A stretch of 23,470 nt of DNA from a virus. Of the stretch, positions 12,765 to 13,743 are shown piece by piece. Each line of letters opens with the position of its first letter. Within the stretch, counting starts at the first letter, position 1. The notes under the pieces are model-generated. The model saw only the letters and a program-made list of their open reading frames with translations, did not search any database and was not told the origin of the DNA. The position numbers and the translations under genes were made by a program. The stretch is taken from IMG/VR virus record IMGVR_UViG_3300046519_000281, positions 1 through 23,470 of that record, one strand, 5' to 3'.

Positions 12765-12821
12765 AAAATACAAACATTTCTATCGGCCGATATAGGCATT
12801 TGAATATTCCGGCGTTATACT
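12765..12821. promoter_or_regulatory. Divergent operator pair and promoter of the large RNA
   Basis: Two related imperfect palindromes, both with spacer CATT, lie two helical turns apart: ACAAA-CATT-TCTAT (12770-12783) and ATAGG-CATT-TGAAT (12792-12805). Both resemble the ATAGA-N4-TCTAT operator at 1651 and 23270. A rightward promoter TAGGCA (12793-12798), 17 bases, TATACT (12816-12821) overlaps the second palindrome and predicts a start at about 12828, the first base of the first long stem of the RNA. The leftward regulator gene would be served from the same region. Confidence 0.6.
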
Positions 12822-12942
12822 GGCCTCGCTTTCAGACAAGGCGCTCAGTCGCACGTAAGCGGCGAGGCTTCGGACCGCTATCCGAGGTTCTCAACCAGAG
12901 TCCGTCGAGTCGGAAACGATGCCACGCGATGCGCGTCTGAAA

Positions 12943-13067
12943 GCACTCTCACGCCAAGGCGTTCGGCGGTGGTCGGTGGGCGCGGCCACAAACGACACTT
13001 AACTGCGCGATTCCTTGTGAACTACGCTGCCATATGCGAGCGTTGAGCGCCTTGGACGTGAGAGTGC
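12943..13067 (+). repeat. RNA domain A (first of two homologous stem domains)
   Basis: The outer stem GCACTCTCACG (12943-12953) pairs with CGTGAGAGTGC (13057-13067). It continues, after one unpaired A at 13056, as CCAAGGCGTTC (12954-12964) with GAGCGCCTTGG (13045-13055). The interior holds TTCGGCGGTGGTC and, near the 3' side, GCTGCCATATGCGAGCG, both shared with domain B. The total helix is 22 base pairs with one T-G wobble. Confidence 0.8.
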
Positions 13068-13198
13068 TATCGAACCCGAAAGGGTCTAGGAGCCAACGGC
13101 GGGGTTTGCGTCCCGCCCACTCTCTACGGGCTATGTGTCGCAGCGTAGCCGCCAGTGGTAACGCAGTGATGCGCCCCTGACAGCCCGGAAAGCACGGG

Positions 13199-13302
13199 CA
13201 TCCTCACGCCGAGGCATTCGGCGGCGGTCCGTGGGCGGGGCCGCGTAGACAAATTCCGGACGCTGCCATATGCGAGCGCTGAATGTCTCGGACGTGAGGG
13301 TG
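13199..13302 (+). repeat. RNA domain B (second homologous stem domain)
   Basis: CATCCTCACG (13199-13208) pairs with CGTGAGGGTG (13293-13302), and CCGAGGCATTC (13209-13219) with GAATGTCTCGG (13281-13291), again with a single unpaired A (13292) at the same place as in domain A. The interior blocks TTCGGCGGCGGTC and GCTGCCATATGCGAGCG match domain A, while the apical part is about 20 bases shorter. Base changes relative to A keep all pairs. Confidence 0.8.
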
Positions 13303-13709
13303 ATCGGATAGTGGAAAGCGCAGGCGTAACAGCCGTCTAGCAGGGTTCGATACCGTGCCCTTTCACTCTCAACAGCGGATGGAACCTATAGCGCATATGG
13401 TGGACGGGTCGGGCGGTTGCGCTGATGCCCGGCACGTTCATCCATCCGCCCACGAATGCACCTGAAGCCGCGCTCGAAAGACCGGAACTGAGGGGTAAGC
13501 GGCAGGTCTCGGAGCCGTGGAGTCCGGTGGAAACCCGGCAAGAATTCGAAATCCCCGAAATTTGGGGGTTTGAACCGTCTGCCAGCGCTTGAACGCCGTG
13601 TGAGCGAAGTACCGGGTAGTCCGACGTATGAGCGGATCGAACGGAAACGCAAGAGTCGCGGATACTCCAAGTGAGCGCAGGGCGCGAATGGGCAAGCCAC
13701 TGGCCCGGT

Positions 13710-13743
13710 AAGGCCCGGCCTCAAAACCGGGCCTTTTCCTTTT
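13710..13743 (+). terminator. Intrinsic terminator of the large RNA
   Basis: AAGGCCCGG (13710-13718), loop CCTCAAAA, CCGGGCCTT (13727-13735), then TTCCTTTTTCC. The perfect nine-pair stem with a T-rich tail on the plus strand ends about 20 bases before the next rightward ATG (13762), so that gene may depend on read-through or on an unseen promoter. Confidence 0.85.

Follow-up and report, generated by a model that had tools for sequence, protein, structure and literature searches.

What does a phage encode in a gene-sized stretch of about 0.9 kb in which no credible protein can be read? The question arose for positions 12828–13743 of a 23,470-nt viral sequence, the whole of the 23.5-kb IMG/VR record IMGVR_UViG_3300046519_000281 (hereafter, the window). 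The initial annotation had proposed a large structured RNA flanked by a dedicated promoter and terminator, similar in size and phage context to the GOLLD and ROOL RNAs and possibly of a new class. Our analysis showed that the window RNA is an autonomous gene of a P1-like phage (or phage-plasmid) of the Burkholderia group, built of exchangeable structured modules. The identity of 12828–13743 as a gene for a structured noncoding RNA is nearly certain, and its place in a new modular class of large phage RNAs, absent from Rfam 15, is well supported. The gene was resolved into the following parts.

12793–12821, plus strand: sigma-70 promoter TAGGCA-17-TATACT, with its -10 element kept in relatives
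12828–12944, plus strand: domain 1, closed by GCTTTCAGAC/GTCTGAAAGC (12828–12837/12935–12944); homolog in L147 78% identical
12943–13067, plus strand: helix S/S', GCACTCTCACG (12943–12953) with CGTGAGAGTGC (13057–13067), 11 bp, closing module A copy 1
12955–13054, plus strand: module A copy 1, with P1, P2 (GTGGGCG loop) and P3 (GCCATATGCG loop); 87.3 bits with covariance model R1
13060–13124, plus strand: C-slot 1, with the GNRA hairpin ACCC-GAAA-GGGT (13074–13085) and a hairpin at 13098–13117
13199–13302, plus strand: helix S/S', CATCCTCACG (13199–13208) with CGTGAGGGTG (13293–13302), closing module A copy 2
13210–13290, plus strand: module A copy 2; 80.8 bits with R1
13295–13371, plus strand: C-slot 2, holding module C2 with a T-loop hairpin (13340–13358); 83 nt 97.6% identical in L234
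13375–13449, plus strand: module Z, closed by GCGGATGGA/TCCATCCGC; 76% identical to the domain that opens the pBVIE05 RNA
13456–13541, plus strand: module E; 95% identical in L017
13710–13743, plus strand: intrinsic terminator AAGGCCCGG-loop-CCGGGCCTT, 9 pairs (13710–13735), then a T-rich tail

The borders of the gene were found where they had been proposed. The promoter was the only sigma-70-like match in 2.5 kb, compared with 0.8 in shuffled sequences, so its consensus alone is not above chance, but the -10 element and the start are kept in relatives: the window and four to five others (pBVIE05, L147, L036, L234, and L048) have a TANACT -10 element (TATACT, TAAACT, TAGACT, TACACT, and TAGACT in the start alignment) at equal spacing to a GCTTTC start. 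The predicted start, 12828, is indeed the first base of the first long stem, which is complementary at 10 of 10 positions and is kept in L147. The terminator is as strong as had been claimed, and the GNRA and T-loop hairpins are both there in the sequence, the T-loop itself being GTTCGATAC (13345–13353). The minimum free energy of the RNA was -415 kcal/mol (z = -4.5), a value equaled by none of 20 shuffled sequences. A search of 12828–13743 against Rfam, with the GOLLD and ROOL models included, yielded no family at the gathering score and only weak, chance-level matches up to E = 10. Searches for tRNA and tmRNA (ARAGORN, Rfam) were likewise negative, and a complete cloverleaf was absent from the entire 23-kb window. 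An internal duplication that the initial annotation had missed (12943–13066 resembling 13198–13302, in two blocks at 84–86% identity) corresponds to the part of the gene that contains both copies of module A.

The fold of module A was proven by covariation. Across 12 diverged copies, 97.1% of alignment cells were paired and 16 of 23 pairs showed double changes; none of 500 shuffles did as well, and controls in which the alignment was slid reached at most 41% pairing. Most of this covariation was carried by the remaining copies, not by the pair in the window. The loops of P2 (GTGGGCG) and P3 (GCCATATGCG) were nearly invariant. Model R1 matched the window exactly twice, at the two copies listed above, both of which were in its training set. 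It also matched 46 of 61 Burkholderia genomes, with up to seven copies per genome, often in clusters of four to seven, which identifies the two window copies as copies of an RNA element of the host genus. Approximately 30 Burkholderia prophages carry a lone form of module A shortly upstream of an ORF, and this form was also found in the named phages Bcep176 and Shewanella phage vB_Sb_QDWS. The chromosomal element has no Rfam name (e.g., L055, L056, L061, and L068; G053:C8:79290-140337), and in some Burkholderia genomes several copies lie within ~100 kb. Two copies (L060 and L068) are located upstream of putative foldase genes; among the few loci looked at, no gene was common to the downstream side of chromosomal module A.

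Within the window RNA, covariation was shown for module A and for the terminal hairpin of module E (CCGG-UGGAAAC-CCGG, 13524–13538), a module also present in seven other loci (L017, L396, L411, L412, L417, L418, and L200). Homologs thus keep the stems by compensatory changes rather than breaking them at the rate expected by chance. These covarying stems ruled out coding or decayed coding sequence at 12828–13743, a reading to which we give almost no credence. It could draw on stop-free stretches of 101–127 codons on the minus strand; however, a GC content of 62% commonly yields stretches of this kind, every frame of the region has 5–11 stops, and relatives differ by insertions and deletions of entire modules. 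The ORFs inside the RNA had no match in Pfam or PHROG, and no protein homolog was found, in agreement with the original view of the region as free of credible coding.

The organization of the RNA became apparent when signatures were mapped along each sequence: S strands (ACTCTCA-like) and S' strands (TGAGAGT-like) alternate, with the modules between them, and the modules are closed by repeated helices of 7–11 bp (ACTCTCA/TGAGAGT). The slots between these strands are filled differently in different RNAs, with A–C in L017, A–C2 in the window, B–C2 in L234, B–C in L147, and T–C in pBVIE05. Because C2 is 97.6% identical between the window and L234, and E 95% identical between the window and L017, while their neighbors have changed, we conclude that modules recombine as units. 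In all 13 B–C loci, S' pairs with 7–9 bp upstream and with 5–9 bp downstream through overlapping bases, and its match to the partners in the same locus is better than to those elsewhere. The same layout is repeated in the window, with A as the upstream module in both instances (11 and 7 bp; 10 and 9 bp); taken by themselves, however, the downstream helices of the window did not reach significance (shuffle frequencies of 0.16 and 0.07). In C-slot 1, the S' strand at 13060–13066 can alternatively pair with CACTCTC at 13118–13124, around both hairpins; in C-slot 2, TGAGGGTGA (13295–13303) can pair with TCACTCTCA (13363–13371).

Several further features of the window RNA were recorded. Behind the GNRA hairpin of C-slot 1, a frame resembling a tmRNA tag (GCC AAC ... 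GCA GCG TAG, ANGGVCVPPTLYGLCVAA followed by a stop) spans 13092–13148; it was recognized post hoc, has no conserved counterpart in relatives, and may be due to chance, and it was set aside. In module Z, CGCATATGG (13392–13400) perfectly complements CCATATGCG, the loop found in each A copy (13030–13038 and 13266–13274), but it was absent from other A-bearing RNAs and was set aside as a kissing partner. CGCCCAC, the complement of the other A loop, is present twice and is not conserved in relatives.

The phage of origin was characterized via its terminase, which shared 89% identity with its counterpart on the Burkholderia vietnamiensis plasmid pBVIE05 and 68–75% with those of four viral contigs (56–94 kb) with related RNAs. 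The nearest annotated relatives (35–41% identity) were the terminases of Xanthomonas phage Rb1 (41%) and D6, and P1 PacB. Given the sizes of its relatives, the window is probably a fragment of a P1-like phage of ~90 kb. Phage Rb1 contained no convincing module A or C.

Homologs of the RNA were hard to reach by direct alignment: a blastn search with the whole RNA region yielded nothing in INPHARED and, among plasmids, only the promoter/HTH part of pBVIE05. The pBVIE05 homolog was recognized via the 850-nt unannotated gap after this match, behind the same HTH gene and promoter, with a tRNA-like module inside. The RNAs of L036 (identical to L045, Paraburkholderia sp. C35), L017, L147, L234, and L048 were found via loop and module patterns and then confirmed by blastn; L147 came from a scan of IMG/VR with the promoter-start pattern, which was otherwise largely noise. 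The same kind of RNA was found in five related Burkholderia-group phages or phage-plasmids. L017 and the window have module E, the terminator and the downstream gene in common. The T modules of pBVIE05, L036, and L234 are tRNA-like, with D and T arms, and match Rfam tRNA, and in L048 a true tRNA-Gly follows directly after module A.

The usual follower of module A is module C, whose slot in the window holds other modules instead. Its canonical motif, GAATGCGC-AGGCTGAT-GCGC plus GCCGG-AGATCAGCA-CCGGC with a kissing loop, folds into a helix around a D-like and a T-like hairpin with mutually complementary loops. In an alignment of 25 sequences, from which the variable insert had been removed beforehand, 93.4% of cells paired and 14 of 23 pairs showed double changes. 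Independent compensatory variants of the loops (GCTGAT/ATCAGC; GGTGAT/ATCACC in L235, L329, and L396; GCTCA/TGAGC in L200) support a predicted kissing interaction. The canonical module was found in L017, L147, L036, and pBVIE05 but not in the window, where model R2 scored 8.0 bits (13057–13127, not significant) and 6.0 bits at the C slots. The module C core was present in 102 INPHARED records and in at least ~100 IMG/VR contigs.

Module C was enriched near tRNA genes. Of 93 C loci, 12 had tRNAs at a distance of up to 1.5 kb, compared with 19 of 915 control points (~six times more often), and all 21 of these tRNAs were on the same strand as the module. T-arm hairpins were detected in seven of 97 C inserts, where 0.16 were expected. 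Module C precedes tRNA genes in CASP1, ST4, and KlebP_265. In Gamaleyavirus IME11, it is located in a 2-kb unannotated gap; this unannotated stretch (L387, 466–2552) also includes two or more tRNAs that lack annotation, together with several hairpins that resemble tRNA. In Aeromonas phage ST4, a sub-threshold match to the sRNA STnc100 (39 of 47 bits; L392, 943–1051) lies upstream of module C and a tRNA cluster. In Pseudomonas phage PAJU2 (L388, 1385–1650), module C is placed between antiterminator Q and the lysis genes, the position at which lambdoid phages begin their late transcript.

Phages of the enterobacterial type carry an additional module, composed of a pseudoknot-like hairpin, a frame beginning with GCAAACGA, and then an apparent pseudoknot. 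It was detected in L279, L295, L310, L327, L333, L349, L357, L358, L362, and L364, as well as in L387 (IME11), L389 (Bas77), and L394 (KlebP_265), upstream of module C in most of the full set. The frames encode tags of the tmRNA type (ANDDVVLMAA, ANDDLMMVAA, ANDDLMLMAA, ANDEQFLAVA, and ANEEMYLAVA), and the match to Rfam tmRNA_permuted was below threshold (33 of 47 bits). The module is possibly an undescribed phage tmRNA-like RNA. In this module these relatives resemble standard or permuted tmRNA, whereas the window has no tmRNA match.

How does the class relate to known large phage RNAs? We know of no function for the T4 RNAs rnaC and rnaD (stable RNAs 1 and 2), small stable phage RNAs within a tRNA cluster, the first with a T-arm-like GGGTTCGAATCCC. 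At 139 and 119 nt only, they differ from the window RNA, and neither R1 nor R2 matched the T4 locus. GOLLD and ROOL, large RNAs that phages encode near tRNA islands, assemble into cages via kissing loops and A-minor contacts (PMC12286853). The likeness to both is confined to context and scale. On the side of likeness, GOLLD is a phage or prophage noncoding RNA of at least about 800 nt, often found near tRNA islands, that has a constant and a variable part, sometimes with a tRNA in the linker (PMC12286853), and ROOL is likewise a large phage RNA, located close to tRNAs and containing pseudoknots as well as kissing loops (PMC12286853). The window family differs from GOLLD in that it combines modules freely between repeated closing strands and is hosted by proteobacteria. 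Neither covariance model had a gathering-score match in the window or its relatives, or any match up to E = 10 in the region; with ROOL, there is accordingly no recognizable module in common. As to the tRNA context, the 23-kb window lacks tRNAs, and the wider module C class is enriched near them. The earlier suggestion of a new class stands in that the RNA is unlike any Rfam family; it is not monolithic, though, but a mosaic of modules shared with many phages. The openly licensed literature contained no description of this class by context or sequence words.

A function as a sponge or scaffold is suggested by the two copies of a host element, the T-loop modules, and the exchange of modules without a fixed overall shape. 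The transcript would display several independent binding modules on one molecule and act during infection. As module A is present twice and is a stand-alone element of the host genus, each copy would probably capture the host factor that normally recognizes the chromosomal element, although the chromosomal copies may be cis-regulatory rather than protein targets. Modules with T-loops and tRNA-like folds would make tRNA or the translation machinery a further target. Since each S' strand complements both neighbors, the closing helices of adjacent modules would compete, and the chain might change its pairing while it is transcribed or exchange strands with other molecules. Taken jointly, the modular class and the multivalent sponge or scaffold function appear to us about evenly poised between right and wrong; the mechanism by itself, read from sequence and predicted folds, is a tentative proposal that we rate somewhat below that. 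Similarly tentative, if conceivable, is a broader reading as an RNA gene of an altogether new kind, in which proteobacterial phages would assemble giant RNAs combinatorially, like LEGO, from interchangeable modules set between strands able to pair with the neighbor on either side. The modules would be elements resembling host RNAs, tRNA-like folds, kissing-loop modules and, for certain phages, the tmRNA-like tag module, and the RNA would act on host translation or RNA machinery in infection.

Three other readings were weighed against the sponge or scaffold. The S/S' strands and kissing loops could join copies into a homo-oligomer or cage resembling those of GOLLD and ROOL. Phage origin, a size of ~0.9 kb, the tRNA association of the wider class, and the compensatory variants of the C kissing loop, an interaction used in GOLLD and ROOL cages together with A-minor contacts (PMC12286853), would all fit, and strand sharing would permit domain swaps. 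We nevertheless consider self-assembly unlikely: the GOLLD and ROOL models did not match, the C kissing loop can be intramolecular and canonical C is missing from the window, and module order and number vary freely among relatives, a freedom not expected of a closed symmetric cage.

Still less probable is a tRNA-related decoy in counter-defense, whose tRNA-like modules would absorb host nucleases that cut tRNA in infection. The T modules with both arms, the tRNA-Gly directly behind A in L048, the excess of T-arm hairpins in C inserts, and the T-loop of window C2 are consistent with it, but a complete tRNA-like fold is missing from the window RNA and the most conserved modules (A, the C core, and E) are not tRNA-like. 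On a par with the decoy, we place a cotranscriptional strand-exchange switch, in which the upstream module would close on S' first and the downstream S would then compete, with A or B as sensor and C as output for neighboring genes. The double complementarity of S' in 13 of 13 B–C loci, with its own partners fitting better, the repetition of the layout in the window, and the lone A shortly upstream of phage ORFs would agree with such a switch; against it, the strong terminator ends the window transcript before the next gene, and the genes downstream of C vary between phages.

So far, giant phage RNAs have comprised a small number of distinct families, GOLLD and ROOL among them. The window RNA adds a further class, whose modules, the same or related ones, occur uncatalogued in Burkholderia chromosomes and in considerably more than a hundred other phages. 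Some of the large gaps left without annotation in phage genomes, among them the 2 kb in IME11, are explained in part by this class. Its mosaic of modules amounts to a set of domain swaps made by nature, and the phages' copies of an RNA element from Burkholderia chromosomes provide a testable link to a host partner. As members of the class occur in phages available in culture (Gamaleyavirus IME11, BASEL coliphages, and Pseudomonas phage PAJU2), genetics is possible in laboratory strains.
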